From the NCBI GenBank assembly GCA_018700525.1, contig JABITN010000167.1:1-64000 (forward strand): a stretch of 64,000 bases of DNA, given 5' to 3'. Positions within the stretch are counted from its first letter, which is position 1. Every line of letters starts with the position of its first letter. The notes beneath the pieces were generated by a model, which saw only the letters and a program-made list of their open reading frames with translations, had not been told where the DNA came from and made no database searches. Source of the DNA: Opitutales bacterium. Lineage in GTDB: Bacteria; Verrucomicrobiota; Verrucomicrobiia; Opitutales; Opitutaceae. Shown here in pieces: positions 5,433 through 30,885 of this stretch. The position numbers and the translations under genes were made by a program.

Positions 5433-6467
5433 CTATTCAATCCATTGGTAAACGCGCACATAATCGATTTCCATACGAGCTGGAAACGGGGTCGTCGAGT
5501 CAGGGCCGCCTGGCCAGTTTCCTCCAACTGCAAGATTGACGATTAAATAGAATGGCTGATCGAATGGTGCCGGGAAAGGCGCCCCTTCAGAACTCCAACT
5601 CGTTAAAGTCTGATATACATAACTATCAACTGACCAACTAATTTCTCCTTCTTTCCATTCGATTGCATATGTGTGAAACGCATCCTCAACGGTTCCCGAT
5701 TCCAATTCAAACTCAGTCCCCGTACTTGTATTGAACGGCCACCTACCTCCGTAATGAATCGTTCCATGCACAGTAGAAGGTTCATGCCCCACTATTTCTA
5801 CGATATCGATTTCGCCGCTCGAGGCCCATGATCCATAAATATTTTTCGCCGGTAACATCCAAATCGCAGGCCATAGCCCCTGTCCAATCGGCATCCTAGC
5901 TCTCGCCTCGATCTTCCCGTATTTCCAATTACCACGGAATTTCGTATTCAATCTCGCCGAGGTATATTCCTTCGATCCATCAAGTCCCTGATAAGACTCC
6001 TTTCGAGCCTCAATAATCAACAACCCATTCTCAATCCGACTATTCTCCGATTCGTCGGTGTAATACTGAAACTCGTTATTCCCTCCCCCATTAGCATTAA
6101 CGTCGTTAATCCATTTCGAACGATCAATCGTCGACCCTTCGAACTCATCGTTCCACACCAAGGTCCACTGATTCGAAATTCTTCTTGCTCGATAAAAGCT
6201 TCTCTTGGTCTCCGCACCCTTAGTAAATCGATCCATTGCATCGCTCGATCCTCTTATAGGCCCACCCACATTCGACCAGGTCTCCAAATCCTCAGAAAGC
6301 TCCACCTGATAGAATTCCCCAGCTTTTGCAGGAAATTTAATTTCAGTACCCAAGAATATCGACAATGACTCCCCCTTTAAAGGACTGATGGCCATAAGGA
6401 TCCCAAGATTTACAAACGTCAACGAACGCCCTAAATTCGACCAATCAACAGACTCCAACTTTTTCAT
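5433..6467 (-). CDS. Exported GH16 family beta-glucanase (laminarinase-like)
   Basis: An endo-acting beta-1,3(4)-glucan hydrolase candidate, exported by a signal peptide. The retaining catalytic motif GEIDIVE is intact (E219 nucleophile, D221, E224 acid/base, counted from the ATG at 6467). Upstream are WNDEFEGSTIDRSKW and GKIEARARMPIGQGLWPAIWML, and near the C-terminus LIVNLAVGGNWPG and MEIDYVRVYQ, all typical of GH16 laminarinases. Residues about 40-110 form an extra N-terminal module resembling small beta-rich linkers (FYQVELSEDLETWSNVGG). Alternative upstream starts exist, up to 6545, but they would overlap the divergent gene and the operator. It faces the FG-GAP gene across a 76-bp gap holding a putative LacI operator. 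Confidence 0.88.
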   Translation of the reverse strand: MKKLESVDWSNLGRSLTFVNLGILMAISPLKGESLSIFLGTEIKFPAKAGEFYQVELSEDLETWSNVGGPIRGSSDAMDRFTKGAETKRSFYRARRISNQWTLVWNDEFEGSTIDRSKWINDVNANGGGNNEFQYYTDESENSRIENGLLIIEARKESYQGLDGSKEYTSARLNTKFRGNWKYGKIEARARMPIGQGLWPAIWMLPAKNIYGSWASSGEIDIVEIVGHEPSTVHGTIHYGGRWPFNTSTGTEFELESGTVEDAFHTYAIEWKEGEISWSVDSYVYQTLTSWSSEGAPFPAPFDQPFYLIVNLAVGGNWPGGPDSTTPFPARMEIDYVRVYQWIE

Positions 6468-6480
6468 GAATGATTTTGGT

Positions 6481-6494
6481 TGCATTAGATTGCA
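6481..6494. promoter_or_regulatory. Putative LacI-family operator, GH16/FG-GAP intergenic
   Basis: The sequence TGCATTAGATTGCA has the form TGCA-N6-TGCA. Its last part forms a TTGCAT hexamer at 6490-6495 that is 16 bp from TACGAT at 6512-6517, a plausible -35/-10 pair for the plus-strand FG-GAP gene. On the minus strand it lies just upstream of the GH16 start. Closely related 14-mers occur upstream of two other genes of the locus. Confidence 0.65.
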
Positions 6495-6543
6495 TCTTAC
6501 ACAAGCCTTTATACGATTCGTTTTCAAACAAAATCTCGACCGC

Positions 6544-8790
6544 ATGCACTTTGCTCTTTTTGTATTACTAGCTGTTGTAACGATCCATCCTCTAATTGGG
6601 CAGGATAGAATATCAATCGTTCAATTTCTCCGGGAACAGCGCGATCAAACCATCTGGAAACCTGAACGGCTAGCTCAAGATTACGAAACCGCCTTCATAG
6701 AGCTTTGGGATAAATTGCGTGCATGTGGCAATCAATACGCACCATTTCACGAATTCGCATTCAACTCCATAGATCGGCTGCAACTATCGACCGCCAAGTC
6801 ACTGCCAGAAGGTATAAAGATCCAGAGCCACTCGCCTCAACGCAAATCGATTTTGTCTCGTAGCGAATTCGGCGAAGCTCTGAAGACGTTAGAAAATCTC
6901 GGATTTCGCATCGAGCAAACCGAATGGCATCATTCGAAATTCGAAGCGCCCAAAGACGATGCCGCGAAATCTGAGTTCAGTTTCTCCATACACGCTCGTG
7001 GACCGAAACCCGATTCACAATTTTACATCGTTCGCGGGGTTCTCAACATTGCTTGGAATCATAAATCCAATCCGAACGGAATATTCGAACCGGACTACAT
7101 TGGAATAAAACAGATCGATCTGCTAACACGCTCGCAAGCAGCTCCGTTCGAGGAAAGCCTCTGGCTCGAATCGAATAAGCGAGAAACTCCATATAGTATA
7201 GTCCTAGTTGAGGATCTCAATAAAGACGGATTCTCCGATATCGTTTTCCCAAAACTAAACAAAATCTTCTACAACGAAGGTGAATTCAATTTTAGAGAAG
7301 TTCCTCTCACTACTTTTCCAATTCGAACTCGAACGACTGCTGCGATATTGACGGATCTCAATCTGGACGGAAATATCGAATACGTAGTAGCAAGCCACGA
7401 AGCGCCCTATCTATTCGCTTATACTTACAATTCGGATACACAAACTTTCGACGGAAAACCATTCGGAATATGGAAATCGGAATCACCGCTTGTCATCGCC
7501 ATGCTCGCCGCGGGTGATCTTACGGGAGATGGCTATCCGGAACTCTATCTCGGCCCTTCCACTCCTGCATACGAGGACGGAAAGATGCCAACCCCATACT
7601 TCGACGCCAATGACGGGAAACCGGCCTACTTGCTACGCAATACAGGAGGCCTTCGCTACACGGACATAAGCCAGGAAACAGAATTATCGAAAAAGCGGGG
7701 CCGCAGAGCCTACGTCGCTTCAATGCTGGATCTCAACAACGACCAAAGTATGGACATGGTGGTTACAAGCGATTTTTCCGGGATCGACTTTTACGAAAAC
7801 ACTGGCGGAACTCTAAAAGACAGAACCGATGATTGGGTCGACGACCGCAGCCTTTTTGGAATGAGCCAAACATTCGCCGATTTCAACCGGGATGGAAGCA
7901 TGGACCTACTCGCGGTTGGAATGAGCTCTACCACCGCCCGTCGACTAGAACAAATGGGCCTAGGCAGAACCGAATTTCCCGACCACCAAGAAATGAGAAT
8001 GCGCATCGCGTACGGAAATCGCCTCTATTATGGAAATAGGAAAGGAGACTTTCGCCAAAATGAACATAGCGAGAACATCGCTCGCTCCGGATGGTCTTGG
8101 GGAAGCAGTTCGCTAGACTTCAATAACGACAGCTATCCTGACATCTTCATATCGAATGGCTTCCTATCAAAAGGAACCGCTCGCGACTATTGCACCAATT
8201 TCTGGACTCACGATATCTACAACGAAACAAACGTCACGACCTCCCAGATCAGTAAGTACTTTAACTCCTTCGGTCCGAAAGCGCTCGTCGGCGGAAACAA
8301 GATGGGGTGGAATCCCTACGAAAAAGACCACCTCTACTTGAACCTATCCGGCGAAGGTTTCATCAACATAGCCTACCTCTTCGGCGTCTCTAACGGCGGC
8401 GATGGACGAGCGGTCATCGGCGAAGATTTCGATAATGATGGTCGCGTGGATCTTCTGCTTGTCGAGCAAGATTCGATTAACGCCTCCGAGCGCGTTTACA
8501 TTTACGAAAACCGGCTCCCATCAGCCGGTCGCAACTGGATTGGTTTCGACCTTATGTCATCGAAAGGCAAAGCACTTATCGGTACGCGAATACGCATTAT
8601 CGGCGATGAGTACGAAACCGAACGCGTCTACACGCTCGGCGAAGCCTACTCCGGACAAACGCCTTCGAAAATACATTTCGGTCTAGGAGATGCCAAAGCG
8701 ATCATCACCGCCGAAGTCATTTGGCCCGACGGTTCCAAAACCGTTCTGCCAGAGCCTGAGCCAAATTTCTACCACCGAATTTCCCATTAA
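6544..8790 (+). CDS. Secreted FG-GAP repeat protein with C-terminal ASPIC/UnbV domain
   Basis: A 748-residue exported protein (signal peptide MHFALFVLLAVVTIHPLIG). At least seven FG-GAP/VCBS-type calcium-binding strands are visible, such as EDLNKDGFSDIVF, TDLNLDGNIEYVV, GDLTGDGYPELYL, DFNRDGSMDLLAV, DFNNDSYPDIFIS and DFDNDGRVDLLLV, consistent with a beta-propeller. The last ~75 residues match the ASPIC/UnbV domain (GTRIRIIGDEYETERVY…GLGDAK…VIWPDGSKTVL). The first ~230 residues are not recognised. No catalytic role is established for the family; a glycan-binding or cell-surface scaffold role here is inference from its position beside GH16 and its shared operator. Upstream in-frame starts exist but would place the signal peptide internally. 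Confidence 0.85.
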   Translation: MHFALFVLLAVVTIHPLIGQDRISIVQFLREQRDQTIWKPERLAQDYETAFIELWDKLRACGNQYAPFHEFAFNSIDRLQLSTAKSLPEGIKIQSHSPQRKSILSRSEFGEALKTLENLGFRIEQTEWHHSKFEAPKDDAAKSEFSFSIHARGPKPDSQFYIVRGVLNIAWNHKSNPNGIFEPDYIGIKQIDLLTRSQAAPFEESLWLESNKRETPYSIVLVEDLNKDGFSDIVFPKLNKIFYNEGEFNFREVPLTTFPIRTRTTAAILTDLNLDGNIEYVVASHEAPYLFAYTYNSDTQTFDGKPFGIWKSESPLVIAMLAAGDLTGDGYPELYLGPSTPAYEDGKMPTPYFDANDGKPAYLLRNTGGLRYTDISQETELSKKRGRRAYVASMLDLNNDQSMDMVVTSDFSGIDFYENTGGTLKDRTDDWVDDRSLFGMSQTFADFNRDGSMDLLAVGMSSTTARRLEQMGLGRTEFPDHQEMRMRIAYGNRLYYGNRKGDFRQNEHSENIARSGWSWGSSSLDFNNDSYPDIFISNGFLSKGTARDYCTNFWTHDIYNETNVTTSQISKYFNSFGPKALVGGNKMGWNPYEKDHLYLNLSGEGFINIAYLFGVSNGGDGRAVIGEDFDNDGRVDLLLVEQDSINASERVYIYENRLPSAGRNWIGFDLMSSKGKALIGTRIRIIGDEYETERVYTLGEAYSGQTPSKIHFGLGDAKAIITAEVIWPDGSKTVLPEPEPNFYHRISH

Positions 8791-9524: not shown

Positions 9525-12500
9525 CTACGAGCCAATAATTATTTGAGGAATCGTCACTTCAACTTCCAAGATTTCCGAATTTCGTTCGAAAACCAACTGG
9601 CTATTTTCAACTGACAACGACGCTTCGTCTTCAATCTTTTCTTCGTTTGTCGCACGTTTAATCCGAATACTCCAAGCCTCCCCTAGTCGAAGCACAAAAA
9701 GCGTTTGGCAGAAAGTGACTGCTAACTCGCCCGATTGAATTAACTTGCTTTTCGGACTTCCAGATTGATCGAGGTAAAGGAATTCCGCTGGTTCGTTCAA
9801 AAAGGCTTCTCGGCGAAGCAAAAGCGGCTCAAACCGGATTTGTCCTCCTTTAACCTTCAAACCGATTTCTCCGAAGCGAGTGATTATATCCTCTTTCACC
9901 TGTCCCGTCATCCCAGGTTGCTGAGCTCCGCAATGCTTTGGAGTATGCGAATAAGCATCGATCGGAAAGGCTCCGTAATCACATGATTCTTTATTTAGCC
10001 CAAGTCCTTCAAACGTTTCAAAATAGTACTTTCCCAATACATCAAGCGTCTTTTTTTGAGCTCCATTTACTTGCGCCCAATCATAATTCTCTTGGATGGC
10101 CAATAATAATTTGGATACCATGTGCCAGTACACGCTCCCTAAACCTTCGTATGCGAAAAACGTACTGGACCTTCCCGTGAAGCGAAGATGATCGAAGCAA
10201 TCGTCGAATATCGACTTCACGTTCGCCAGTATATCAGCACTCGAAAAATCAGGATAGTCCACTGCTATATTCTCCAGTTCGCTCCTCAATTCATCGCTAT
10301 TTCGAAAGTCTCCATTAAATCGAAACTGGCCGACCACGTCTCTCTTAATTACCCGCTCATCACAGCGTTTGATCATTTCCACTAACAATCGATTACTCTC
10401 CATCATAGTTCTCGATACCACGTTTTTCTCTAAGAAAGTTGCCAATTCACGATCTGGATACAATAGATAACTTGCGACATCTTCGCGATATAGAGCACTG
10501 CTCCGCAGTGCAGCTAACAAGCTAACAACTTGGTCAACCGATAAGCGCCCAGAACTCAGAGCCGCCACCTGGCCTTCTAGCATAATTGGCAATCGGTCTA
10601 ATTCCAAACAGTCTCCTCCCGTCGCTTTGATCAAATTATACGAATGATACAATAGGTCGGCTCGCAGATTAGCGTCAATCGATGCTTCGACAAAACGCTG
10701 ACTAAGCTTCAAATAGTCGATAATTCCCTTAAGGGAAAGGCTCTTCCAAGAACCAGCGAATCCATTTTCGTACAATTGATTTCGAAATGACTCCCCTCCA
10801 ATTCCCAGCATTCGGACCATTTCCATTCGTGATTTCGAATCGAATCCGCCAACCAAACTGCTCTCGAATTCATCGAAAACAGCAGACTGATGGGTCAGCA
10901 TTTCCATAACCTCGCCGTGAACCAAATACGCAGCCTCGTCGCTTTCAACTTCCAGTAGCTTCAACATGAATTCGATGTATCGATTCACGTAACCCAGCGT
11001 GACCATCGATATGCCATAACCCACCAGGGCATTGTTCGCATCATTCCACTCGGGACGCTGCGTATTCATCCAAATTCCTCCGTCAGGGACGAAATTCGAC
11101 AATTTCGAAAGCAAAGGAATCAACAATTTCTCAGCAAGAGTTGCTTCTTCAATTTCTCCGCTCCTATCTACCAACAATTTTCCGTCAGTGCCAATCGCTG
11201 AACAACGCTTATCGATTTTCGCAGCATCTTCGTCGCTAAAATCAATCGTCTCGCGCGGGTTCTTCCAAATCTCCGAAAACGAACGAATTCGATAAGGCAC
11301 CTGAGTGTAAGTAAAAATGCATTCACCCAGCAATTCTCGTAAGACCTCTGGATGATAACGGACCGACGTCTCAAGCAACTTCAATAAATAGATGATCTGA
11401 TGATCACCCCAATATCCGATATTCGACCAAGGCGAATCTGGTTCGATCGTTTCCCAATCTATCCCGTCACGCGTAATTCGATAGGGATTGTATCCATCCA
11501 ATGTAGATGAATTCAAAAAACGAAACACCATTCCCTCCACGTAACCTGGATACGAACAGGCGAGCGCTTCCCAATTTTGAAAAATATCACGCCAGTTTCC
11601 TTCGTACCCTAGAACCGGGTTTCCAAGCTTATCCTGAGTTTCAATGGAAAATCGATTCCAAGGGCGACTCGGATCCCCATGTCTTCGACTGAAGGTCAAC
11701 GGCAAATACTCTCTGGACAACCTAATGAGTCGAGCGTCGCCAGACTGTGACGCCCATTGGACTAGCTCATCATAATCCACGTTCTCTCGATTCCCAAACT
11801 CCTTATCGAGTCGAACCTTCAATCCAGAAAACGCAGATCGATTTCTCGATTCTACGTAATCGACGAAATCCGACACATCCAAACGGTAAGCATCATAAAA
11901 CACGCCTCCCCTCATTATATTGAACAATGTATTCGAATAATGCCGACTATCTCTTAAACGATCCGAGGTGAGTGATAGTCCATCAGCTGACGCCACTTTC
12001 AATCGAAGATCAGCAACATTTTTTTCGATGTCGACTTCGAGCCGTTCTCTCATCCAGTCCGTCCGTAAATCCGACTGCAACGATTCGACCTGAGCGGCGT
12101 CTTGATTAATCTCAGCCACTATCCACCAATCCTTTTGTCCACCTGCATCCAAATCAATCAGGCTTTCAACCAAATAAGCGCCACGCATCCCTCGAATATC
12201 TCTCTCGCCGCTCAAGGTTTTTCCATTTCGAAAAACCTCCCTTTGACGAGACGAAAGCAGCACCGTCTCACAGGCCAACCCCAGACTCCATGCAACCGTT
12301 GCCCTAAGGCCTTCGCTCGGCTCCGCTCGATCGGTGGGAACCGAACTCAGATAGAAAATCGCCAATTTTCCCTCATCCAAAAGTTCGCATTTTTTATACG
12401 CATCAGACAGATTGCTGTACTGGCTCACGAACGCCTGATCCAGGCCATAGGGAACCAGGTTTTGAATACCGTCCAGTATTCGAATTCGTACTGGCTCTTG

Positions 12501-13016
12501 AAGCAAGTTCTCTACCCATGCTTTCCGCGCGAAGCCAAAAAGGTCACTAAAGGTCCACAAATAACGGAACGAAACCCCCACGGCGAAATTCAATTCTTCG
12601 AATATCAGCTTATTGCCCGTTTGATTCTTATACAGGTTTCGCTGAATCGTTTTGCCATGGTTCGCCTCCTTGAAAGGTTCCCAGAAACGCGGAGCGTCAT
12701 ATTCAGAACGATCGACCCACAGCATACTCGCGCTACCTACTGTAGAAGATTGCTCGAATAACTTGTCCTGAGTACAATAAGGAAACAACGCGTTATCGGC
12801 ATTGCGCCTTCCTGCAGTTAGAGCGCCGTTACTAGAAATAAACATCCAATGATTATTCGCGCTGACCAAATTGATCAGGAAAGGAGCCATCTCGCTCGAT
12901 CGCTCGATTCGGAAATAGGACTCCCCTTCAATTTCTACGAAACCATCGTCACTTCCCGCACCCCCAAAAGATTTCATCGACAAGGATTGGTCTGAATCAG
13001 AAAACTCGATCTTCAT
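9525..13016 (-). CDS. Large cytoplasmic GH94/GH149/GH161-like glycoside phosphorylase candidate
   Basis: A 1163-residue protein without signal peptide. The N-terminal third resembles the beta-sandwich of inverting glycoside phosphorylases (FSDLFGFARKAWVENL then ILDGIQNLVPYGLD). The central part looks like an (alpha/alpha)6 barrel and holds PEWNDANNALVGYG, where D659 occupies the place of the catalytic acid in the DWND-type motif of GH94. A late block, DAYSHTPKHCGAQQPGMTG, may contribute to the phosphate/acceptor site. Length and layout fit beta-1,3-glucan phosphorylases of GH149 or GH161 better than the ~800-residue GH94 enzymes. Such enzymes release glucose 1-phosphate from beta-1,3-oligoglucan. 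The gene stands between GH16 and GH17 genes, diverges from lacI and shares an operator. Family and activity are inferred. Confidence 0.6.
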   Translation of the reverse strand: MKIEFSDSDQSLSMKSFGGAGSDDGFVEIEGESYFRIERSSEMAPFLINLVSANNHWMFISSNGALTAGRRNADNALFPYCTQDKLFEQSSTVGSASMLWVDRSEYDAPRFWEPFKEANHGKTIQRNLYKNQTGNKLIFEELNFAVGVSFRYLWTFSDLFGFARKAWVENLLQEPVRIRILDGIQNLVPYGLDQAFVSQYSNLSDAYKKCELLDEGKLAIFYLSSVPTDRAEPSEGLRATVAWSLGLACETVLLSSRQREVFRNGKTLSGERDIRGMRGAYLVESLIDLDAGGQKDWWIVAEINQDAAQVESLQSDLRTDWMRERLEVDIEKNVADLRLKVASADGLSLTSDRLRDSRHYSNTLFNIMRGGVFYDAYRLDVSDFVDYVESRNRSAFSGLKVRLDKEFGNRENVDYDELVQWASQSGDARLIRLSREYLPLTFSRRHGDPSRPWNRFSIETQDKLGNPVLGYEGNWRDIFQNWEALACSYPGYVEGMVFRFLNSSTLDGYNPYRITRDGIDWETIEPDSPWSNIGYWGDHQIIYLLKLLETSVRYHPEVLRELLGECIFTYTQVPYRIRSFSEIWKNPRETIDFSDEDAAKIDKRCSAIGTDGKLLVDRSGEIEEATLAEKLLIPLLSKLSNFVPDGGIWMNTQRPEWNDANNALVGYGISMVTLGYVNRYIEFMLKLLEVESDEAAYLVHGEVMEMLTHQSAVFDEFESSLVGGFDSKSRMEMVRMLGIGGESFRNQLYENGFAGSWKSLSLKGIIDYLKLSQRFVEASIDANLRADLLYHSYNLIKATGGDCLELDRLPIMLEGQVAALSSGRLSVDQVVSLLAALRSSALYREDVASYLLYPDRELATFLEKNVVSRTMMESNRLLVEMIKRCDERVIKRDVVGQFRFNGDFRNSDELRSELENIAVDYPDFSSADILANVKSIFDDCFDHLRFTGRSSTFFAYEGLGSVYWHMVSKLLLAIQENYDWAQVNGAQKKTLDVLGKYYFETFEGLGLNKESCDYGAFPIDAYSHTPKHCGAQQPGMTGQVKEDIITRFGEIGLKVKGGQIRFEPLLLRREAFLNEPAEFLYLDQSGSPKSKLIQSGELAVTFCQTLFVLRLGEAWSIRIKRATNEEKIEDEASLSVENSQLVFERNSEILEVEVTIPQIIIGS

Positions 13017-13323: not shown

Positions 13324-14382
13324 ATGCCCAAGCCAAACCAAAAGCAAATTGCTGATCAACTCGAACTCTCCCGCACCACTGTCTCTAGATGCTTTACGAA
13401 TCACCCGAAAATAAACCCAGAGACTCGGTCGAAGGTTTTTCAATTAGCAGCTGAACTGGGCTATAGCTATTCTATCCAACGCAATGCCCACGCTAAGACC
13501 GACTCTACGCGAAACACGATTGCCATAATCGTGGGTATAGAAAAATCGGCTACACAGTCGAAAGAACCCGCAGCTGAGATCCTAAACGGCATTAGCGAAA
13601 AAGCCGCGGCCGAAGGACTGGAAATTGAGATTCACTATGTCGATCCTTCTAAGTTTCTGCCTTCATCGAGATCTAGACGCATAATCAAGGGCGTTAGTTG
13701 CCTTCATTGGAAAGGCGTTGTGTTAGTGTATGATTTCCAAGAAGAAGCCGTATCCAATATCATGGCCAAGTTTCCTACGGTCTCTGCGCTCGAAGACTAC
13801 GACGACGTAGATGTTGACTGCATTGGCCAGGATCAAGTGCGCGGGATATCCCGTATCATGCAGCATCTGCATGAATTAGGACACCGACGCATAGGTTTCT
13901 TGAGCTGGAAGTATCCGGTACACACTCCCTGGGTCGAAAGACGTCTCGGCGCCTACGTTGAAAACATCTACCGACTTGGACTGGAACTCGATACAGATCT
14001 CATTCTTAACCTCAAACCTGATGAGCAAACCCCACTCGACGAGCTTGCCGCACAGGTAGCTGAGAGAGCAAACCAGGGAGTCAGCGCCTGGGTTTGCGCA
14101 GCCGACCACCAGGCGTATCACTTGATCGACCAATTAAAAACGCACGGAATTAACGTTCCCGAAGATTGTTCTGTTACCGGATACGATGGACAGCCTCCAA
14201 CCGAAGGAACCCAACAAGTTACAACGATTCGCATGCCTTTCAAAGACATTGGAATATCCTGTATTTCCTCGCTCCTAAGAAAAATGAAACACCCAGTAGC
14301 GTCGCGCAGAAATCTACAAGTTTCAGGTGAACTCTTGATCGGATCCACAACTGCAGCTCCTCTTCAGCGAGCGATCGCCTAG
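13324..14382 (+). CDS. LacI family transcriptional regulator
   Basis: A 352-residue regulator. Residues 1-55 form the LacI helix-turn-helix and hinge region (PKPNQKQIADQLELSRTTVS, then INPETRSKVFQLAAELGY). The rest is a periplasmic-binding-protein-like sensor domain (GISRIMQHLHELGHRRIGFL, WVCAADHQAYHLIDQL, CSVTGYDG, RMPFKDIGISCISSLL). It would bind DNA as a dimer and respond to a sugar or oligosaccharide. It is divergent from the phosphorylase-like gene and near three similar 14-bp sites, making it the obvious candidate regulator of the beta-glucan locus, including itself. The ligand is unknown. Confidence 0.92.
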   Translation: MPKPNQKQIADQLELSRTTVSRCFTNHPKINPETRSKVFQLAAELGYSYSIQRNAHAKTDSTRNTIAIIVGIEKSATQSKEPAAEILNGISEKAAAEGLEIEIHYVDPSKFLPSSRSRRIIKGVSCLHWKGVVLVYDFQEEAVSNIMAKFPTVSALEDYDDVDVDCIGQDQVRGISRIMQHLHELGHRRIGFLSWKYPVHTPWVERRLGAYVENIYRLGLELDTDLILNLKPDEQTPLDELAAQVAERANQGVSAWVCAADHQAYHLIDQLKTHGINVPEDCSVTGYDGQPPTEGTQQVTTIRMPFKDIGISCISSLLRKMKHPVASRRNLQVSGELLIGSTTAAPLQRAIA

Positions 14383-14666: not shown

Positions 14667-16106
14667 TCAGTTCTCATGGATAACTTCGCCACGTCTGGCT
14701 ACCAACGCCTGTCGGATTTCATGAGCTCGTTCCTCAGTCACATCATATTTCCAGATTACCAAGATTGCCATCAATCCTGCAATGATCGGAATCAGAATAT
14801 CTGCGATTCGTAGGTTAGTCAGAGAATCAGCTGATTGTATTGTAGCGTTTTGATCAAACCCAACGAGATTCAAAACCGCTCCACTGGTTAGCAACGCAAC
14901 TGCAGTACCCAATTTAACCATCCACCAGTACACCGCCCCGAACGTGCCCTCGCGGCGCTTTCCATTGTTCAATTCGTCTAAATCACACACATCGGCTGTC
15001 ATCGACATCATCAACGTAAACAAACCGCCAATACCAAACGACATGAGCGGAATTGGCAGGAGCATAAGATACGGATTAGATGGATTAAAGCCCCACCATT
15101 TAAGCCCATAGCCAACTAACGAAATCAATGTGGCTATAATAAACGCATTTTTCTTACCCACTTTCGTAGAAATATAAGTAACGACCGGTATCACCAAAAC
15201 AGCAGTTGCTAATGCGCTGATCGTTCCAAACCAAGCAGGCCAATTCCCGGCAGCACCGGTATCACCATTAAAGAGGTGAAAAATGATGATAAAAAAAGCG
15301 AATTGCGCGATTGTCTGAAAACCATTAAATATAAGAAAGGTCGCCCCACACAGCCTTAGAAAAGGCTTACAGACTAGCGTTTGCTTAATCCCAACAACAA
15401 ACTCCCTTGTATTGACCGCCAACTCCTTCAACGAAAGTTCAGAGGCAACATTGGAATCCGGTAATTTCATTTCCTTACAGAAAAACGCTGGCATCAAACC
15501 TAAAAAAACACATAAAGAGCCCACCCATATTGCGAGATTACGAGCTCCTTCAGTTGCCGAATCATAAATCGATTCATTAAAGATGATGACCCAAAACCAA
15601 GGAGCGATCATCCAGGCGACTTGCCCCATCTTCTGCGACACCGCCATTAGGCGAGTACGCTCGTTATAATCGGAGGTCATTTCATAGCCCAACCCGATTA
15701 ACGGTGTAGCGAATAGGGTATAACCAATATAAAAGACAATGGATAGACTCAGAAAATATATAAAATTGTAGCTTTGAGAATTCTCGGGATACAACTGCCA
15801 CATAACCATGAAGCAAACCCCAGTAATCACACTCCCTAAAAAAATATAGGGCTTCCGCCTTCCCCACCTAGATCGCGTATTGTCAGAAATGTACCCCATT
15901 AAAGGGTCAGTCAGAGCATCAAGCAAACGAGGAATCGCCGCCAATAAACCAGCGATGAACGGATCCATCTTCAACGCCAACACCAAAACAATCATAAACA
16001 CGCCTAGCGCTGCCGGAAACAACTGGTTAGCCAAATGCCCCGACCCGAAGGCAAGTTTTTGACCTAAAGGGACGATATCTTTAGAAGCAGTTTTGTAGTG
16101 GGGCAT
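14667..16106 (-). CDS. MFS sugar symporter, glycoside-pentoside-hexuronide (GPH) type
   Basis: A 479-residue inner-membrane protein with about 12 hydrophobic segments. The GPH/MelB signature after the second segment is clear (LTDPLMGYISDNTRSRWGRR), with the cation-linked Asp residues. GPH members co-transport glycosides with sodium or protons. It is the last gene in the leftward run receptor-symporter-GH17-GH17-symporter, separated from the second GH17 by about 195 bp, so it may have its own promoter. It likely imports glucose or beta-1,3-gluco-oligosaccharides; the substrate is inferred from context. Confidence 0.88.
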   Translation of the reverse strand: MPHYKTASKDIVPLGQKLAFGSGHLANQLFPAALGVFMIVLVLALKMDPFIAGLLAAIPRLLDALTDPLMGYISDNTRSRWGRRKPYIFLGSVITGVCFMVMWQLYPENSQSYNFIYFLSLSIVFYIGYTLFATPLIGLGYEMTSDYNERTRLMAVSQKMGQVAWMIAPWFWVIIFNESIYDSATEGARNLAIWVGSLCVFLGLMPAFFCKEMKLPDSNVASELSLKELAVNTREFVVGIKQTLVCKPFLRLCGATFLIFNGFQTIAQFAFFIIIFHLFNGDTGAAGNWPAWFGTISALATAVLVIPVVTYISTKVGKKNAFIIATLISLVGYGLKWWGFNPSNPYLMLLPIPLMSFGIGGLFTLMMSMTADVCDLDELNNGKRREGTFGAVYWWMVKLGTAVALLTSGAVLNLVGFDQNATIQSADSLTNLRIADILIPIIAGLMAILVIWKYDVTEERAHEIRQALVARRGEVIHEN

Positions 16107-16300: not shown

Positions 16301-17239
16301 CTAAACGCGAGTTGAATGGAACTGATCCATCACTTTCTTCGGTTTCCGGTTAACGCGGTAAAGTCCCCAGTGTTTTTCTGGCTCCATTGGATCTGACGAA
16401 CCCTTCCAAGGTTCGTCGAAGGCTTCGAATACGAAACACAGAATCGACTTCTTTTCCGCCCACCTGACTAGATTGTCGAGGTACGTCTTTTGATTATCCT
16501 CATTTGCATCCTCTAGTCGCATTCCCCTTCCGTTCGAGCTGGTCGTCCAACCAGCCTCAGTAATCGAGACGGGCTTGCCTGGATATTTTCGAGCCACAGA
16601 CGAATAATTCTCTATTGTGAATGACATCGCTTCACTGATGTTTTTGAACTCCCAGATCGGATAAGTATGCAACGAGATGAAATCCACTTCGTTCCCCAGA
16701 ATTTCGAGCTTGCCGAGCCAAGGAACATAGTTTTCGCAAAACGTAACCGGCTGTCGAGCACCCTTCTTAACCATTCGAACGTATTCAACGACCCGGCCTA
16801 CTGGAACGAGATGATCGGTCCAGTCGACCGTCGCTTCGTTTCCCACTGATAGCGAAAACACCATCTCTGGATATAGATTGGCCAATTCGATGAGCCTGCT
16901 CACCTCATTTTCGTTGTTTCGCCTATTGGACTCCAATACCGATTCAGGATAGCTCCCGCCCCAAGGACACCCGGGGTTACTTACCTCGGCGCCAATACTC
17001 GCCCCCAACATAAGCTTGAAGTTAAGCTTTTCTTTCCGAATCACCTCCAGGACGATTTTCGCATGTTCGCTGCAATCGTAAAGCCGAAGATACCTCCATT
17101 GATCGTGGAGAATTAGCAAATCCTCCCTTATCTGCTCATAGCTTGGAAATATCCCCGTACTTGGGCTTTGCCCCTCCCGGTATCCGGAATAGCAAATAGC
17201 TCTGCCGCTACCAAACCTTAACTGGCTCTCGTCGCTCAT
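16301..17239 (-). CDS. Cytoplasmic GH17 family beta-1,3-glucanase/transglycosylase (second copy)
   Basis: A 312-residue protein with GH17 (beta/alpha)8 features: SVGNEATVD holds the acid/base E135 and VSITEAGWTT the nucleophile E228. No signal peptide is present, so it should act inside the cell. The ATG at 17239 overlaps the stop of the preceding GH17 gene by ATGA, indicating translational coupling; the longer open frame to 17278 is less likely. Sequence identity to the neighbour is low by eye, so the pair probably has different chain-length preference or hydrolysis versus transfer roles. GH17 in bacteria acts on beta-1,3-glucans; the exact activity is inferred. Confidence 0.85.
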   Translation of the reverse strand: MSDESQLRFGSGRAICYSGYREGQSPSTGIFPSYEQIREDLLILHDQWRYLRLYDCSEHAKIVLEVIRKEKLNFKLMLGASIGAEVSNPGCPWGGSYPESVLESNRRNNENEVSRLIELANLYPEMVFSLSVGNEATVDWTDHLVPVGRVVEYVRMVKKGARQPVTFCENYVPWLGKLEILGNEVDFISLHTYPIWEFKNISEAMSFTIENYSSVARKYPGKPVSITEAGWTTSSNGRGMRLEDANEDNQKTYLDNLVRWAEKKSILCFVFEAFDEPWKGSSDPMEPEKHWGLYRVNRKPKKVMDQFHSTRV

Positions 17240-18123
17240 TCGAATTTCAATTCGCCATTCTTGTCCCAGATTCCCCAATACGCACCGACATCGCCCTCAT
17301 CTCCGATCTTCCAGTCCTCGTCGAATGAAGAAAAATAAAACACCTCCAAATCATCATCGCGGGCCCACTCCTGAGTATTGATGAAATATTTAAGAGCATT
17401 GCCTACGGAAGGTTCAGCCGCTTCATGAGCAGTACCCTGACTAGGCCAGCCTGTCTCGCTAATCACCACTTTCTTGCCTTTCGCAGCTTTACTCACCCGA
17501 TGATACATATCCTTCATGTAAAGCAATGAATACTCGAAATCGCAACCTTCCCAATAAGGATAGCAATTGGCGAAAACCACATCGCAGGCATCTGTAAGCA
17601 AGGGTCGATTAACGAATTCGTAATAGGCATCTACATACCCTACCTGCAATTCCGGCAACGCCTTCTTGACCCGATCAATGTAAGCGATCAATTGCTCTTC
17701 GCTCAAGTCGTCGCGATACAATACCTCATTTCCCACCGCAACGTTATCGGCATAACCCGCTCGAGCGATTTCGATCAAATTAGCGATTTCCTTTTCATTA
17801 TCACCGAGGTCTTTCCCCAACCAGGCGCCGACCATCGTCTTCAATCCATTCTCGTGGGCGATTCGCGGGATCCGTTCATTTCCGTCCGCGCAGGAAAACG
17901 TCCTCACCCAATTCGTATAGGGTTTGATAATCTCAAGTCGACTTTGAATTTGCTCGCTGGTCAGCTCGGACCCAGGCCTTTGATCGTTCGCATAGGGACT
18001 GAAGCACAAACCGTGCATACGAGCATCCAATAATTTTCCGAATGCGGTTCTCAGATCCCCCTCGGATGCATTCAAGTAATCGGTTCCAGCCAAAGCCATA
18101 ATATTCATTTCACTAGAAGACAT
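17236..18123 (-). CDS. Cytoplasmic GH17 family beta-1,3-glucanase/transglycosylase (first copy)
   Basis: A 295-residue GH17 enzyme. VAVGNEVLYRDD holds the acid/base E133 and VVISETGWPSQGTA the nucleophile E223; GLCFSPYANDQRPG at the N-terminus matches the first strand of GH17 barrels. A start at 18141 is possible and would add six residues. It lacks a signal peptide. It lies 21-39 bp after a GPH symporter gene and overlaps the next GH17 by 4 bp, forming an operon for import and intracellular cleavage of beta-1,3-gluco-oligosaccharides. Confidence 0.88.
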   Translation of the reverse strand: MSSSEMNIMALAGTDYLNASEGDLRTAFGKLLDARMHGLCFSPYANDQRPGSELTSEQIQSRLEIIKPYTNWVRTFSCADGNERIPRIAHENGLKTMVGAWLGKDLGDNEKEIANLIEIARAGYADNVAVGNEVLYRDDLSEEQLIAYIDRVKKALPELQVGYVDAYYEFVNRPLLTDACDVVFANCYPYWEGCDFEYSLLYMKDMYHRVSKAAKGKKVVISETGWPSQGTAHEAAEPSVGNALKYFINTQEWARDDDLEVFYFSSFDEDWKIGDEGDVGAYWGIWDKNGELKFE

Positions 18124-18162
18124 AATAGAAATTCTCTCCAAATAGTTACAAATTCAATACGT

Positions 18163-19539
18163 TCAGGAATTTTCTTCCCGTCGTTTTTCCAACTCAATTT
18201 CGATTTCACTAACCTGTTCTTCGCTTAATCGATAGAAAACGACCGCCACAATACCAAGTATTGCTAGCAGTGCCGGAAATAAGCTAAACATAAGTCGAAT
18301 ACCCAGCATAGATGAATCCGATTGGGCTGTATTCGCGACGAACCCAAATAGGGCAAGTATGAATCCAGATACCCCTGCTCCAACGGCCAAGCCCATTTTT
18401 TGAGCAAACTGGAGGGCGGAAAAAATGAGAGCGGTCGTTCGACGCCCCGTCTTCCATTCACCATAATCAGCGCAGTCTGCATACATTGCCCAGACCAATG
18501 CTGGGGTCGGTCCTGAAATGAATGCTCCAATGCAGTTTACAAAGATCATCAATCCATACTGCTGTGGGGGGATGAAGAAAAAGGCAGCTATGAGAACCGC
18601 GTTCATGGAACTCAGCGCAATCAACAAATTTCGCTTTCCAAAACGGTTGCTTAAAAATTTTGTAAAGGCAACGCCAGCTATCATGGCGAAAAGTCCTGAT
18701 GACATAAATACAGCCGTCTTATCGAAAATGAGGAAGATGGGACTTCCATCATCACCCACGTAATACTTGAAATAATAGATGATCGCTCCATTACGCACAG
18801 CAAGATTCATCAACGTAAAAATGGCTGCCAAAAAGAGCGCCAGCCACGGACCATTGCTCATCAAAGCTCCAAAATCCGATTTCAAGTTGCTATCCTTCTG
18901 AGGCGTTTTGACGCGCTCTTTTGTCGTAGCGAACGTCACCCAAAAAAGACCGATGGAGATGACCGCAAAAATCATCATGGTTAGACGAAAGCCATTTGCC
19001 TCATCTCCTCCTCCAAGGATGTTCTTAAGTGGCGTCACGAAGGTACCAATCAACCAAGCTGCCCCAAAGGCACATATGAACCGAAATGATGCGACTTTCG
19101 TTCGTTCTGCGGAAGAGGGCGAAATCACTCCCATCAGTGCTGAATAGGGAATATTGATTGTCGTATACGCCAGCATCATGAGAGTGTAAGTAGCATAGGC
19201 GTAAACCAGCTTTCCCGCGTAGGTGAAATCTGGATTCGCGAACATAGCATAACCCATAATCCCATATGGCACCGCCGCCCAGAGAAGATATGGCCGAAAC
19301 TTTCCCCATCGACTATTGGTTCGATCCGCAATCAAGCCCATTACAGGATCGCTCACCGCATCGACAACCTTCGTCACGATAAACATCGTACCCACTGCCG
19401 CAGGCGTTAATCCGAATATGTCCGTGTAGTAATAGAGAAGAAATATATTAAAGACCTGAAAAAAGAAATTCGACGCGGTATCGCCCAGTCCATATCCGAA
19501 CTTCTCTCTAAAGCTAAGCACTGTGGCACGACCTTCCAT
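18163..19539 (-). CDS. MFS sugar symporter, GPH/MelB type
   Basis: A 458-residue protein with about 12 membrane segments and the family signature VSDPVMGLIADRTNSRWGKF. Loop and segment order (GYGLGDTASNFFFQVFNIFLLYYYTDIFG at the start, a charged C-terminal tail ending LEKRREENS) is typical of GPH symporters. It is the first gene after the receptor terminator and leads the operon with the two GH17 genes. Its likely cargo is laminari-oligosaccharide crossing the inner membrane; this is inferred from the neighbours. Confidence 0.9.
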   Translation of the reverse strand: MEGRATVLSFREKFGYGLGDTASNFFFQVFNIFLLYYYTDIFGLTPAAVGTMFIVTKVVDAVSDPVMGLIADRTNSRWGKFRPYLLWAAVPYGIMGYAMFANPDFTYAGKLVYAYATYTLMMLAYTTINIPYSALMGVISPSSAERTKVASFRFICAFGAAWLIGTFVTPLKNILGGGDEANGFRLTMMIFAVISIGLFWVTFATTKERVKTPQKDSNLKSDFGALMSNGPWLALFLAAIFTLMNLAVRNGAIIYYFKYYVGDDGSPIFLIFDKTAVFMSSGLFAMIAGVAFTKFLSNRFGKRNLLIALSSMNAVLIAAFFFIPPQQYGLMIFVNCIGAFISGPTPALVWAMYADCADYGEWKTGRRTTALIFSALQFAQKMGLAVGAGVSGFILALFGFVANTAQSDSSMLGIRLMFSLFPALLAILGIVAVVFYRLSEEQVSEIEIELEKRREENS

Positions 19540-19667: not shown

Positions 19668-22547
19668 CTAAAAACTCATACCCATCTGCATCGTCCATGC
19701 TGTGCCGGTTGCGTAGATGAAACCGTATGGGTCTTTGTCGCCAAGCATGTTATAGACGTTCAATTGAACATGAGCATCTCTATCCTTAAATTTGAAGGGA
19801 TAACGAACCATGCCATCGAAGTTAAATCGCTCTTTGGTCGTCAGAATAACCCGTTGTCCTTCGCCATCGGTCACCAACTGGCCAGAGCCATCGGTTATGC
19901 CCGAGAAGTATTCGCGTGGGCTTTCCCAGTTTCCGCCAAGTCCGAATGACATTCCAGACAGAGGTCCTTCATTAACGGTGTAGTTACTCCAGAAGCTCGC
20001 TGCATGCCGAGGAGTATCGTCTTGTGCCTCTCCTCCTCCGTAACCCCTACTCTGCCACGTCGACGTATCGTTTGGATCGGTGTATTGTTCCTCCAGAGAA
20101 TATCCAGACAGACCCCAACCACCATCTGGAAAGTACCAGATCGCCCAGCGATCGACTGGTCCGTCGCCATACATATCTGCGAACTGACCTGCATTGACCA
20201 CCTGCCGTTTCGTTTGAGCGTAATTGAGTACGAATTGAATATTATCAGTCGGGGCAAAGTTGAATTGACCTTCCCAACCCGACGATTCCTGGTCGCCACT
20301 CACGTATGCATCCCAACCATCGTGTTCCTGACCTGCGAAATTCATACCTGCATGATTGGTATTCTCATCGTAATTATAAAGCCATCCGGGCCATCCAGGA
20401 TGTGTCGTTTTCGTTGCGTCGAAAACCGCATCTAAATAATCTGCACCGGCTGACTCGGTGGCATTCACATACCACGTTTCCTCAATCTGGTAGGCCGCTC
20501 CAGATGAAACAGCGCTATCCCACTGCGGCTTCGCTGCCGTCAAGGCTCCATTCCGCCAATCGGCTTCGACCGTAGGATTGAAATCCGATACATTGTATAC
20601 GATCGGAGAACTAGCATCCCATTTCGTCTTAGCCGGCGTAGGAGCCCACCAGTAGAAAATCGGCGTACCGGATTGCTTGATACGATATGCGCTAATCGTA
20701 CCGGAGAGCTTGCCATCCATAAGATCGAATTTGATTCCTACTTCTTCACTCTCAGCAGTAACAGCCTCCATAGCTTCACCATACACGTCCTTATTGCCTT
20801 CGAAGTTCGGCATAATGCCATCCGACTGCAAAGCGTAGACAGAGATGTTCTTGTTAACTTTGAAACTCAATCCGAGTTGCATCGTATCCTTTTCAGAAGC
20901 GCCTGGTCGGCTCTCGAGCACAGTATCGCCTACGTAATCATTGGTGATCGTGTTGATCGCGTTGCGATCTCGGCGAATACCAGCGACCGTCGTAATACGA
21001 TCTTTCCAGAAACCGCCTTGGTGAACCAAGTAGGTTCCTTGGTTCCAAGCTGTATTGTCGTCGCCGGAGAAATCTTCCATTCCAGGAGCGGCGCTGCCGT
21101 CTCCATTCTCGCCGAAGCGAATGTACGACGAATCCGTCGGATCCTTCCATGTGTACTCGTTAGCAATGGTTGACCGTTTGAAAATATTCGTTTGCGACTT
21201 TTCTTCGGAATGTCCCAATAGAAAACTGTTCGTAAAACCGAAGTTATCGTTATTTGGAAACGCGTCGAAAGAATAACTAGCCTCGACTCGAACCTGCTGG
21301 CGATCAATCACTTCAGCCTTATCTGCCCAAGTACCTCTGAAAATCGCTCCGGTTATTGGACCGGCCTCAAACTCGGAATCGCCATTCACAACATCTGCGG
21401 GAGTGACGACGATCGTACTACGCAAGCTCTCAGGGCCTGCATTCGTCTGAATCGATCCGTTGATATCACGGATATCGAATTTGACATTCGACTCGTTCAA
21501 TCCAACGAGAACATTGAAATTATCCGAAAATTGATGCGTCGCTTGAATGCGCATATTGGAAGTCTCGGTATCCACGAAAGTATCCGGCCCACTCCAACGA
21601 AACGTTTTAATATCCTTGCCGGGAAATGTTATAAAACCCGCCCGTTCCAGTCGATCTTGCTGATCATCCGGAATATTGGCACGCGCTCTCAAGCTCTGAA
21701 ATCCAACTCCATCATCCTGGCGTTTTCCATATTCAAAATCAAACGTCAAATCAGTCTTCTCAGTAGGCTTCATTGTAAAAATCGGCGAGATAAAGAAATG
21801 TTCGTCACTTCTAAGCTCTGTATGGCTACCGTTTTCTTCATAAGCGCTCGTTAGGTTGAAACGAAGGTCCCATGGGCCGCCAAGCGGTCCGCCAATACTA
21901 TGCGTCGCGCGACGATGTCCGCGATTGCCCATGCTCAGTGTAAAATCTTGAGCACCCTCAGCTGGAGGAAGTTTCGGGAGGTAATTAACGATACCGCCGA
22001 AGTTTCCAATTCCATAAAGCAACGCAGCCGGTCCGCGAATCACTTCAATACGACCAATATTGGCCGAGTCGGTAAAGAATTGACGCCTGTATCCATCACG
22101 CAATGTCGAATCGGTCAGGAATCCTCTTACCTTGTATGAAGTGTTGCTCTTATTCGAAGTCGCTCCTTCTGGGTTGTGAACGCCACCTACAGTGCTTGTA
22201 CTATTGCCTTTACCAGCATCGTTCTGAGATTGGAGAACGATTCCAGCGCTGTACTGCAAGGCATCTCGCAAATCGGTTGCACCGGTATCTTTAATAAACT
22301 CATCGGTGATCACCTCGATCGGCATCGGAATGTCCTTGATCGCAGTATTGAGACGCGTTCCGGAGATCGTGTTCGTCGCCCGATAGCCGCTATCATCTGA
22401 TACATCTACGGAAAATGGGGAAAGTTCGAAAATCTCATCAAATTCTTCGTCATCATCTTGACTCTGGACGGATGCCAGGATGGTCACGCCAGCAGCCAAA
22501 AAGCACATGACGGGTTTAAATTTACGTGTATAGGATAAGTGGTTCAT
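19668..22547 (-). CDS. TonB-dependent outer-membrane receptor
   Basis: A 959-residue outer-membrane channel for energy-dependent uptake. The N-terminus has a signal peptide (FLAAGVTILASVQS), then an acidic stretch and the ELSPFSVDVSDDSGYRATNT segment common in Verrucomicrobiota receptors. A plug domain follows at about 65-190 (IPMPIEVITDEFIKDTGA, YKVRGFL, RIEVIRGPAALLYG, GGIVNYLPK), then a large beta-barrel ending in the terminal phenylalanine (WTMQMGMSF). No SusD-type partner is encoded nearby, and the layout is not that of SusC. A putative LacI operator lies about 200 bp upstream. The expected substrate is beta-glucan fragments, by context. Confidence 0.92.
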   Translation of the reverse strand: MNHLSYTRKFKPVMCFLAAGVTILASVQSQDDDEEFDEIFELSPFSVDVSDDSGYRATNTISGTRLNTAIKDIPMPIEVITDEFIKDTGATDLRDALQYSAGIVLQSQNDAGKGNSTSTVGGVHNPEGATSNKSNTSYKVRGFLTDSTLRDGYRRQFFTDSANIGRIEVIRGPAALLYGIGNFGGIVNYLPKLPPAEGAQDFTLSMGNRGHRRATHSIGGPLGGPWDLRFNLTSAYEENGSHTELRSDEHFFISPIFTMKPTEKTDLTFDFEYGKRQDDGVGFQSLRARANIPDDQQDRLERAGFITFPGKDIKTFRWSGPDTFVDTETSNMRIQATHQFSDNFNVLVGLNESNVKFDIRDINGSIQTNAGPESLRSTIVVTPADVVNGDSEFEAGPITGAIFRGTWADKAEVIDRQQVRVEASYSFDAFPNNDNFGFTNSFLLGHSEEKSQTNIFKRSTIANEYTWKDPTDSSYIRFGENGDGSAAPGMEDFSGDDNTAWNQGTYLVHQGGFWKDRITTVAGIRRDRNAINTITNDYVGDTVLESRPGASEKDTMQLGLSFKVNKNISVYALQSDGIMPNFEGNKDVYGEAMEAVTAESEEVGIKFDLMDGKLSGTISAYRIKQSGTPIFYWWAPTPAKTKWDASSPIVYNVSDFNPTVEADWRNGALTAAKPQWDSAVSSGAAYQIEETWYVNATESAGADYLDAVFDATKTTHPGWPGWLYNYDENTNHAGMNFAGQEHDGWDAYVSGDQESSGWEGQFNFAPTDNIQFVLNYAQTKRQVVNAGQFADMYGDGPVDRWAIWYFPDGGWGLSGYSLEEQYTDPNDTSTWQSRGYGGGEAQDDTPRHAASFWSNYTVNEGPLSGMSFGLGGNWESPREYFSGITDGSGQLVTDGEGQRVILTTKERFNFDGMVRYPFKFKDRDAHVQLNVYNMLGDKDPYGFIYATGTAWTMQMGMSF

Positions 22548-27121: not shown

Positions 27122-29608
27122 TCAAGGGCTCGCGAAAGTTTCGCTCAAAACGATCAAGCGAACTAAATCCCGAAAACCATCGCCTGTTTCTTCCATCGAT
27201 TCGAGAATTCGATCGATTTCCGTTCGATCCATAATCTCAATACGACGCCCTAAAGCATAGGACAGCATCTTCTTGGTCAACGCCCTTGAAAAGATGTCTT
27301 TCTTAGCCAATAATGCTTTCTTAAAGTTCACTACATCCTCGAATTGCTCTCCGCTAGGAAGCTTTCCAGACGCGTCGATTTCCGCCCGGTCGCCATACAT
27401 ATCGCGCCACTGTCCTATCGGATCGAAATTCTCCAAAGCGAAGCCCAAAGGATCTATTTTCCTGTGACACTCATTGCAGGCTTCCGCTTCCCGATGCTTG
27501 GTCAACTGCTCGCGAATCGTCGTGGTACCGCGAATATCCGGGTCCAAAGGCTCGACGTCCGGCGGTGGCGGTGGCGGTGGCGTACCTAGCAAATTCTCTA
27601 ACAACCATACTCCACGCAATACTGGCGAGGTATCCACTCCATTAGCGGTCACCGTCAAAATGCTTGCCTGCCCCAACAGTCCTCCTCGGCGAGGGTCCGT
27701 TAAAGCCACTTTTCGAAACGCAGCGCCTTCTATGCCTTCCAAGCCATAGAGCTCCGCCAAATCCTCGTTGACGAAAGTAAAATCGGCGTCCAAGAAATAA
27801 TCGACGCTGAGGTTCTCATCCAATGCGAACCGAGTGAACATCTCTGTCTCCGTCCGCATAGCATCGCCCAAATCATCCGCGTAGTACTTCTCGAATTTCC
27901 CCCGGTCTGGCGGAGCATCGCCCAAATTTCGCAATGTTAGCCAACTATCCAAAAAGCCGCTCACGAACCGATCCGATCGCTCATCCGCTAACATGCGATC
28001 CATCTGCAAAGCCAAAACTCCAGGCCGACTCAGACGATTGCGCCGTGCTAAATTAAATAATTCGCTATCCGGCTGCGATCCCCATAGAAAATAAGACAGG
28101 CGAGACGCCAAACCATAATCCGTCAACCGATCCGAATCCGAGGTCAGTTTCTCCTCTTCCAAATAAAGGAAAACAGGCGAACACAAAATCGCCTTCAATC
28201 CATCCTTCATCGCCTCGAACTCCGAGTGTCCCTGATCCAACCTCGCCGATACGACACGCATCAAACGATCCACTTCCCCCTTGCTCGCCGGACGACGATA
28301 AGCGCGGTCCGCAAATCCTTGGACAATCTTTCGCGTCTTTTTTGGGTTAAACGCCCCTGATCCGACGATCGCCTTCCATGTAACTGTCGGCCATTCTTCG
28401 TAATGCGGCCCCGTCACCTCCACTTCATGAATACGAATATGGGGAATCCCGCCGTGCTTGATCGCAAGCGCCATGTAGTCGGCCTTCAAGTCCTCCTTAG
28501 GGACAGACGGGCCAGGGTTCTTAATTACCAAATTCGAGACTTCCCTAAACGCCGGACGAATATTCATCGATCCGTTCGGGTAAATGTAACGCGGAGAAAA
28601 ACCCTTATCCAACCAGGCCTCCGCCGTATACCAATCCGGCCCGTCATCTTTCAGTGCAAAGATCCCTAAATCCGGCTCGTGGGGCTGAGGTAAGTGTAGT
28701 CCTCCATATTCCCTACTCCCCGGTATGACGTGCATCAGCATAGGTTCTGCCGGGTCGTTGATAACCTTCTTGCGATTGAATGAGTGAAACCGATTCACCG
28801 CTTCCGCTCGTGTTCGGATCGTATACATACCTCCCGCAGGCACTCCTTCCGAAAAGGCGTGCAACGGTCCGTAGGAGCCGAATCGCCGAACTGTATTCGG
28901 GCGTTCATACACATTCAAATACCGTTGCCCATGAGCGACTATATGACGCTTGTTGAGCTCTGACTGTTGTTCGAAATCACCCTTGAACGTCCAGGTTTGC
29001 GACTCCGGCTTCGTTTCGAACGGCAAGGCCTTTTCAACAATGCGATCCGCCGCTACAATGTAACGATCCAACAGATAACCGGACGTCACCAGCATATCGC
29101 CTACATTGTCCTGATGCTCTGCCAATCGCTCCCCTGGAAAGGTCTCAGTCGGATCGAACATGCTCATATCCATTTCAAAAAGATCGCTAACCGTATTGAA
29201 ATATTCGCGATGATTCAATCGCCTCAAAACAGTTTCTCCACCGGTTATCTCGCGCGTCGCATACGCATCGCTCACCGCTTGAGTCAGCCAATCGACCACT
29301 GCCTGCCGTTCGCTCGAGCTGGGCTGCGCCTCATCTTCCGGAGGCATATCGCCCAAATTCATCAGGTCCAAGATATCCTGAAAATCAATTAACGCATTGT
29401 CATCGGATATCGGATACTCCAACGAATCAAATCGACGATTGCCCTTCTGCTTCTCTTCTCCATGACATCCAATACAATACTCCTCCAAAAATGGACGTAT
29501 CCGATTATCGAATGCGATCGGATCGAAACCCACGGATCCAACATCGTTTCCATGCAACAAAAAGCAGCCCAATAGGCTACTGAAAACCAAAACGCTTTTC
29601 ACTCTCAT
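27122..29608 (-). CDS. DUF1592-family protein with planctomycete-type cytochrome c domain
   Basis: An 828-residue exported protein. After the signal peptide a single heme-binding CIGCH (C45, C48, H49) lies in the cytochrome c-like domain. It is followed by blocks matching DUF1587 (LRRLNHREYFNTVSDLF), DUF1595, DUF1592 (LASRLSYFLWGSQPDSEL…), DUF1588 (RRGGLLGQASILTVTANGVDTSPVLRG in part, then a seven-proline run) and DUF1585 at the C-terminus (LLSYALGRR-like, here KMLSYALGRRIEIMD). These proteins are abundant in Planctomycetota and Verrucomicrobiota; their biochemical role is not established. The start overlaps the stop of the DUF1552 gene by ATGA. Confidence 0.9.
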   Translation of the reverse strand: MRVKSVLVFSSLLGCFLLHGNDVGSVGFDPIAFDNRIRPFLEEYCIGCHGEEKQKGNRRFDSLEYPISDDNALIDFQDILDLMNLGDMPPEDEAQPSSSERQAVVDWLTQAVSDAYATREITGGETVLRRLNHREYFNTVSDLFEMDMSMFDPTETFPGERLAEHQDNVGDMLVTSGYLLDRYIVAADRIVEKALPFETKPESQTWTFKGDFEQQSELNKRHIVAHGQRYLNVYERPNTVRRFGSYGPLHAFSEGVPAGGMYTIRTRAEAVNRFHSFNRKKVINDPAEPMLMHVIPGSREYGGLHLPQPHEPDLGIFALKDDGPDWYTAEAWLDKGFSPRYIYPNGSMNIRPAFREVSNLVIKNPGPSVPKEDLKADYMALAIKHGGIPHIRIHEVEVTGPHYEEWPTVTWKAIVGSGAFNPKKTRKIVQGFADRAYRRPASKGEVDRLMRVVSARLDQGHSEFEAMKDGLKAILCSPVFLYLEEEKLTSDSDRLTDYGLASRLSYFLWGSQPDSELFNLARRNRLSRPGVLALQMDRMLADERSDRFVSGFLDSWLTLRNLGDAPPDRGKFEKYYADDLGDAMRTETEMFTRFALDENLSVDYFLDADFTFVNEDLAELYGLEGIEGAAFRKVALTDPRRGGLLGQASILTVTANGVDTSPVLRGVWLLENLLGTPPPPPPPDVEPLDPDIRGTTTIREQLTKHREAEACNECHRKIDPLGFALENFDPIGQWRDMYGDRAEIDASGKLPSGEQFEDVVNFKKALLAKKDIFSRALTKKMLSYALGRRIEIMDRTEIDRILESMEETGDGFRDLVRLIVLSETFASP

Positions 29609-30885
29609 GCGAGTTCCAAACCGGTGAGCGTTCCTGAACTCGTACCAAATGTTTCCGTCTCGACGCCGAATCGTTGAAGCATCGACAAATAAAGATTACA
29701 CAAAGGAACGCGCTTTATTTTTTCAGTTGGAAAGCGCTTGTGCTCGCCCAGCTTGTAACCGCCTCCTACCAATATAATCGGCAGATCCGTATTCACATGA
29801 GCATTCCCATTCCCCATTCCACTACCGAACATCACCATTGAACTATCCAGCAAGGTCCCATTCGAATCCGGTTCTCTAATCGATTTTAGTTTTTCCAGAA
29901 AACGTGCCAATTGCTGCATCTGATACAACTCGATCTTCACTAACCCCTCGATCCGATCGGCTTTCTTTCCATGATGCGACAGGGAATGATAACCCGAGCT
30001 CAATCCGAAAAACGACGTATCGAAATTCGTACCTGCCATTTCGAATGACGCCACGCGCGTCGAATCGGTTTTCAACGCAATCGCAATAAGATCGTACAAC
30101 ACCGGAATATCCTCAACCAGACTGCGATCCTCCGGTTCTCCCATTGGAGCCTTTGGCTTAGACACTTTCGCCCAACGCTTATCCAACTCGAGGTTAACTT
30201 CAACGTCCCGAACCGAAGTAAAATACTCGTCTAGCTTGTCTTTATCCTGCCCGCTCAATCGGCGCTTTAAATTCGATGCCTCATCCTTAACCGAATCAAG
30301 AATCGAGCTTCTCAGTTCGAAATTATCCGCTGCCTCTTCCTGAGCCTTCGCATCTACATTGATAAACAGCTTTCGAAACAATTCCCGCGGACCCGCAATC
30401 GGCGGTACCCGAACACCCGTTCGAGTCCAGCACATCTGGCAACCGCCATGCAAACCGTCTTCCGAACCAATCGTGAGCGACGGGAAACGCGTCTCCGCAC
30501 CCACATGCTCGGCAGCCCGTTGATCCACGCTGATGTTCCCCTCAGGCATTCCCTTCGCGTCGCCCATCTTCACTCCGCTCAAGAAAGAATGCACCGAAAA
30601 GTGCCCTCCCTTAATATCATGATCGAGATGCGAAAATACCGAAAAGTCTTTCCTGTGTTTTTCGAGAGGCGCCAATAGAGGCGTCATTTGATAATTCGCT
30701 CCGGCCTCCTTCGGGAAAAAGCGTTTCGGGTACATGCCAAATGAATTCCCGATGCACACCATTCGCGTTGGCGGACGAACACCCGATGCCTTTATAGCGC
30801 CTGCAGGCAATGATGCCGAAACCGACTCCAAAGCAGGCAAAGCCAGAGTGGCAAAAGAAGACTTTAAGAAAACGCGTCTGTTCAT
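29605..30885 (-). CDS. DUF1552-family exported protein
   Basis: A 426-residue protein with a twin-arginine-like N-terminus (MNRRVFLKSSFATLALPALE). Body segments such as FGMYPKRFFPKEAG, FSVFSHLDHDIKGGHFSVHSFLSGV and VMFGSGMGNGNAHVNTDLPIILVGGG are characteristic of DUF1552, which is related to the DUF1501/sulfatase-like fold group. It is the first gene of the pair with the DUF1592/cytochrome protein, an arrangement conserved in the phylum. Function unknown; a joint exported redox or ester-cleaving role is speculation. Confidence 0.9.
   Translation of the reverse strand: MNRRVFLKSSFATLALPALESVSASLPAGAIKASGVRPPTRMVCIGNSFGMYPKRFFPKEAGANYQMTPLLAPLEKHRKDFSVFSHLDHDIKGGHFSVHSFLSGVKMGDAKGMPEGNISVDQRAAEHVGAETRFPSLTIGSEDGLHGGCQMCWTRTGVRVPPIAGPRELFRKLFINVDAKAQEEAADNFELRSSILDSVKDEASNLKRRLSGQDKDKLDEYFTSVRDVEVNLELDKRWAKVSKPKAPMGEPEDRSLVEDIPVLYDLIAIALKTDSTRVASFEMAGTNFDTSFFGLSSGYHSLSHHGKKADRIEGLVKIELYQMQQLARFLEKLKSIREPDSNGTLLDSSMVMFGSGMGNGNAHVNTDLPIILVGGGYKLGEHKRFPTEKIKRVPLCNLYLSMLQRFGVETETFGTSSGTLTGLELA

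Follow-up and report, generated by a model that had tools for sequence, protein, structure and literature searches.

The window is a stretch of 64,000 nucleotides of an Opitutales bacterium (contig JABITN010000167.1, positions 1 to 64,000), and the gene studied here lies on its minus strand in a cluster with the following neighbours:

5433..6545, minus strand: GH16 endo-beta-glucanase, likely a secreted laminarinase, the sole GH16 detected in the genome
6388-8790, plus strand: FG-GAP/UnbV_ASPIC repeat protein, between the GH16 and GH149 genes
9525..13016, minus strand: GH149 beta-1,3-glucan phosphorylase of 1163 aa, assigned by NF058639, the 6hq6 alignment and the AlphaFold2 model
13324..14382, plus strand: LacI-family transcriptional regulator, divergent from the GH149 gene
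14667..16106, minus strand: MFS_2/GPH sugar:cation symporter (GPH1)
16301..17278, minus strand: GH17 protein (GH17b), without an evident signal peptide by eye
17236..18141, minus strand: second GH17 protein (GH17a), in tandem with GH17b
18163..19539, minus strand: second MFS_2/GPH symporter (GPH2)
19668..22547, minus strand: TonB-dependent outer-membrane receptor with a plug domain

The initial annotation had placed the protein among GH16, GH17 and sugar symporter genes in a beta-1,3-glucan (laminarin) context. This context is right: a GH16 gene, two GH17 genes and two symporter genes are found nearby, together with the TonB receptor and the LacI-family protein, which is the probable local regulator. 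GH17b is probably cytoplasmic, as judged from its N-terminus. The 2018 paper founding GH149 described 'Type II' clusters, in which the phosphorylase gene is accompanied by genes for a TonB receptor, a GH16 enzyme, a cytoplasmic GH17 enzyme and a transporter of the MFS type (pfam13347; PMC5827456), and the window cluster is essentially of this kind. It shares all four components with the Type II cluster of Gammaproteobacteria (Alteromonadales), but it has a LacI regulator instead of the histidine kinase/response regulator, carries two GPH symporters and belongs to a verrucomicrobial host. Sets of GH17, GPH, GH16, LacI and TonB genes recur around GH149 in many relatives. More specifically, LacI adjoins GH149 in five related loci (L002, L003, L016, L017 and L054), and in most Bacteroidota loci GH17 and GPH genes are found several kilobases or less from GH149.

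Some other features of the region should be mentioned. The FG-GAP/UnbV_ASPIC protein adjoins GH149 in the closest relatives as well (L002 and L016). At 27122-30885 the window has a planctomycete-type gene pair, in which a PSCyt1/PSD-domain protein adjoins an HXXSHH (DUF1552) protein. GPH1 (14667-16106) is 78-79% identical to Bacteroidota proteins from two loci (L083 and L095), whose GH149s are about 45% identical to that of the window. Since the identity of the transporter is far above that of the phosphorylase, it is possible that the GPH1 gene has been transferred laterally.

The open reading frame at 9525..13016 has an ATG start and encodes 1163 residues, exactly the position and length first reported, in a single frame without an internal stop, while frame 1 of the plus strand across the same interval contains many stops. 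Chance origin of the frame is ruled out because the protein has a family match of 1463 bits. The N-terminus, MKIEFSDSDQSLSMKSFGG, has no evident signal sequence by eye, and a cytoplasmic location, as originally proposed, therefore fits.

Reversible phosphorolysis of beta-1,3-gluco-oligosaccharides, with acceptors of DP>=1, is the activity of GH149. The NCBIfam equivalog profile NF058639 ('1,3-beta-D-glucan phosphorylase, GH149 family') covers residues 25-1156 of the protein with a score of 1462.7 bits, which is more than 300 bits above the curated cut-off of 1150 bits. Residues 26-1157 align at E=0 with PDB 6hq6, a crystal structure of the GH149 enzyme Pro_7066, and 47% of the 596 aligned positions that were compared, beginning at residue 473, are identical in the two proteins. 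A Pfam search of the protein gave no match at E<=1, hence no GH94 domain; the same search of one relative likewise gave none, and profile search detected no GH94 match across the whole genome. The length of 1163 residues, noted before as typical of beta-1,3-glucan phosphorylases, does match GH149. Two other statements of the initial annotation have to be given up. It had found the protein close to no family that could be named, whereas the sequence passes the GH149 cut-off by a wide margin and matches, from end to end, a characterised GH149 enzyme of known crystal structure. It had also suggested a divergent or new phosphorylase subfamily, which we reject because the curated cut-off is passed and, in the tree, the protein branches within the range of the other GH149 sequences. 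Thus, the enzyme is of a known kind, a member of GH149, in a type of laminarin cluster that has already been described.

An AlphaFold2 model was built from 30 aligned sequences (pLDDT 84.4, pTM 0.86) and compared with the PDB by Foldseek. The top matches are 6hq8 and 6hq6, with TM 0.93-0.94, rmsd 2.3-2.4 and 44% identity. On 6hq8 the model superposes across 1144 columns (rmsd 2.4, TM 0.94), and the superposition contains the (alpha/alpha)6 core, the N-terminal beta-sandwich, the C-terminal jelly roll and the two GH149 insert domains. The GH94-like phosphorylase layout noted earlier is thereby borne out at the level of clan GH-Q, by both sequence and structure, and the best structural match of the phosphorylase core is a GH149 enzyme. 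The GH161 and GH94 phosphorylases (9gy9, 6ggy) share the fold of clan GH-Q and its catalytic scheme, but their structural identity to the model is only 8-14% and their TM scores are far lower. There is practically no chance that the protein belongs to GH161 or GH94 instead of GH149: the clan is shared, the GH161-like structures 9h8v and 9qqk give weak sequence matches (E about 1e-10) and the folds are similar, but GH161 reaches only 14% structural identity and TM 0.65 against E=0, 44% and TM 0.94 for GH149, GH94 stays at TM 0.58 or less and has no match in the protein or the genome, and profile, sequence and fold comparison together rule out both memberships.

The active-site residues published for Pro_7066 include R470, D471, W651, N652, D653, E951 and H959 (PMC6771811). 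In the alignment these correspond to R476, D477, W657, N658, D659, E957 and H965 of the window protein, identical at seven of seven positions and invariant across the 30-sequence alignment; R476 and D477 make up the RD sugar-phosphate motif of the family. The WND motif thus occupies residues 657-659, with D659 in the catalytic position where the first reading of the sequence had put it. Note that pLDDT drops below 50 in the catalytic loop 656-660, which holds D659. The loop is therefore not reliably positioned, and the model alone cannot place D659; the residue is placed because the segment WNDANNALVG aligns exactly with Pro_7066. It is very improbable that the protein is an inactive or repurposed homologue of GH149, a reading for which we found no supporting point: the reading frame is complete, these seven active-site residues are all retained and the gene context is conserved. 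A same-family relative (L004) has one in-frame TAA within its GH149-matching stretch.

Pro_7066 and the window protein thus align end to end and have the same fold, with inserts inside the catalytic domain, and identical active-site residues, but they are only about 44-47% identical overall and the surface site that binds laminarihexaose in Pro_7066 is partly kept. This surface oligosaccharide-binding site is not a strict feature of the GH149 family. Three of its eight residues are retained (E838 as E845, E994 as E1000 and R1062 as R1068), one is replaced conservatively (K831 by R838) and four are changed (Y841 to A848, E982 to K988, E990 to K996 and Y993 to F999). Since the glucan-binding residues are only partly kept, the chain-length preference of the window protein may differ from that of Pro_7066. 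In the 30-sequence alignment the surface-site positions vary freely across GH149, and the authors of the Pro_7066 structure also remark on this variation (PMC6771811).

The nearest organism-named relatives are all from Verrucomicrobiota: Opitutales bacterium OFTM265 (66%), Puniceicoccaceae K14 (55%) and Pelagicoccus mobilis (53%). Judged by these neighbours, the genome falls in Verrucomicrobiota (Opitutales/Puniceicoccales). In the tree they are grouped with the window protein, which forms a supported clade (100/99) with four verrucomicrobial or same-order sequences. This clade, together with A848, K988, K996 and F999 at the surface site, would fit a distinct verrucomicrobial subgroup of GH149 with an altered acceptor preference, for example for longer chains or with different handling of glucose. 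We consider such a subgroup rather unlikely, as the same surface positions vary freely family-wide, while the active site is invariant. We are highly confident that the protein is a cytoplasmic GH149 beta-1,3-glucan phosphorylase.

The family itself is patchily distributed. GH149 is present in 17 of 95 related genomes and in two of 11 in the genus, the window's own genome counted, and the genome collection contains at least 588 stretches that code for relatives. The hosts named in 2018 were Proteobacteria, Bacteroidetes and Euglenophyceae (PMC5827456). Six loci with GH149 genes (L020, L048, L068, L077, L033 and L059) extend this range to Bacillota, where two of the carriers are isolates (Alkalibacterium subtropicum and Amphibacillus cookii), and, on the basis of MAGs, to Brockarchaeota and Acidobacteriota.

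From the family and the neighbouring genes we infer the substrate and activity of the enzyme and the order of a pathway. GH16 would cut laminarin outside the cell, the TonB receptor would pass the oligosaccharides across the outer membrane and the GPH symporters would bring them into the cytoplasm, where the GH17 enzymes would trim them. GH149 would then take off the non-reducing-end glucose by inverting phosphorolysis, with D659 as the general acid and phosphate as the nucleophile, so that alpha-glucose 1-phosphate is released and the chain becomes shorter. The released product would be led to glycolysis by phosphoglucomutase; genes of the PGM family are found in the genome.

The genome search covered GH1, GH3, GH30 and GH94; beta-glucosidases also occur in GH2, GH5 and GH116. 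GH3 and GH30 have no match in the 96.5%-complete assembly. No intact GH1 was found in the genome; the single match, 35 residues within a 60-codon frame near rnpA/yidC-like genes, is a short fragment that we judge not to be a gene. Since GH3, GH30 and GH94 were not detected, laminari-oligosaccharides may be broken down inside the cell mainly by phosphorolysis, and GH149 and GH17 may handle them without a beta-glucosidase. A stronger version, in which a verrucomicrobial GH149 subgroup has phosphorolysis as the sole intracellular route and an acceptor preference unlike that of Pro_7066, seems to us quite improbable.

Based on these results, the initial idea of an energy-saving laminarin route by way of glucose 1-phosphate is supported in these bacteria, and no existing concept is changed. 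With this analysis a known phosphorylase family gains a further verrucomicrobial member, and a Type II-like laminarin cluster is documented in that phylum.
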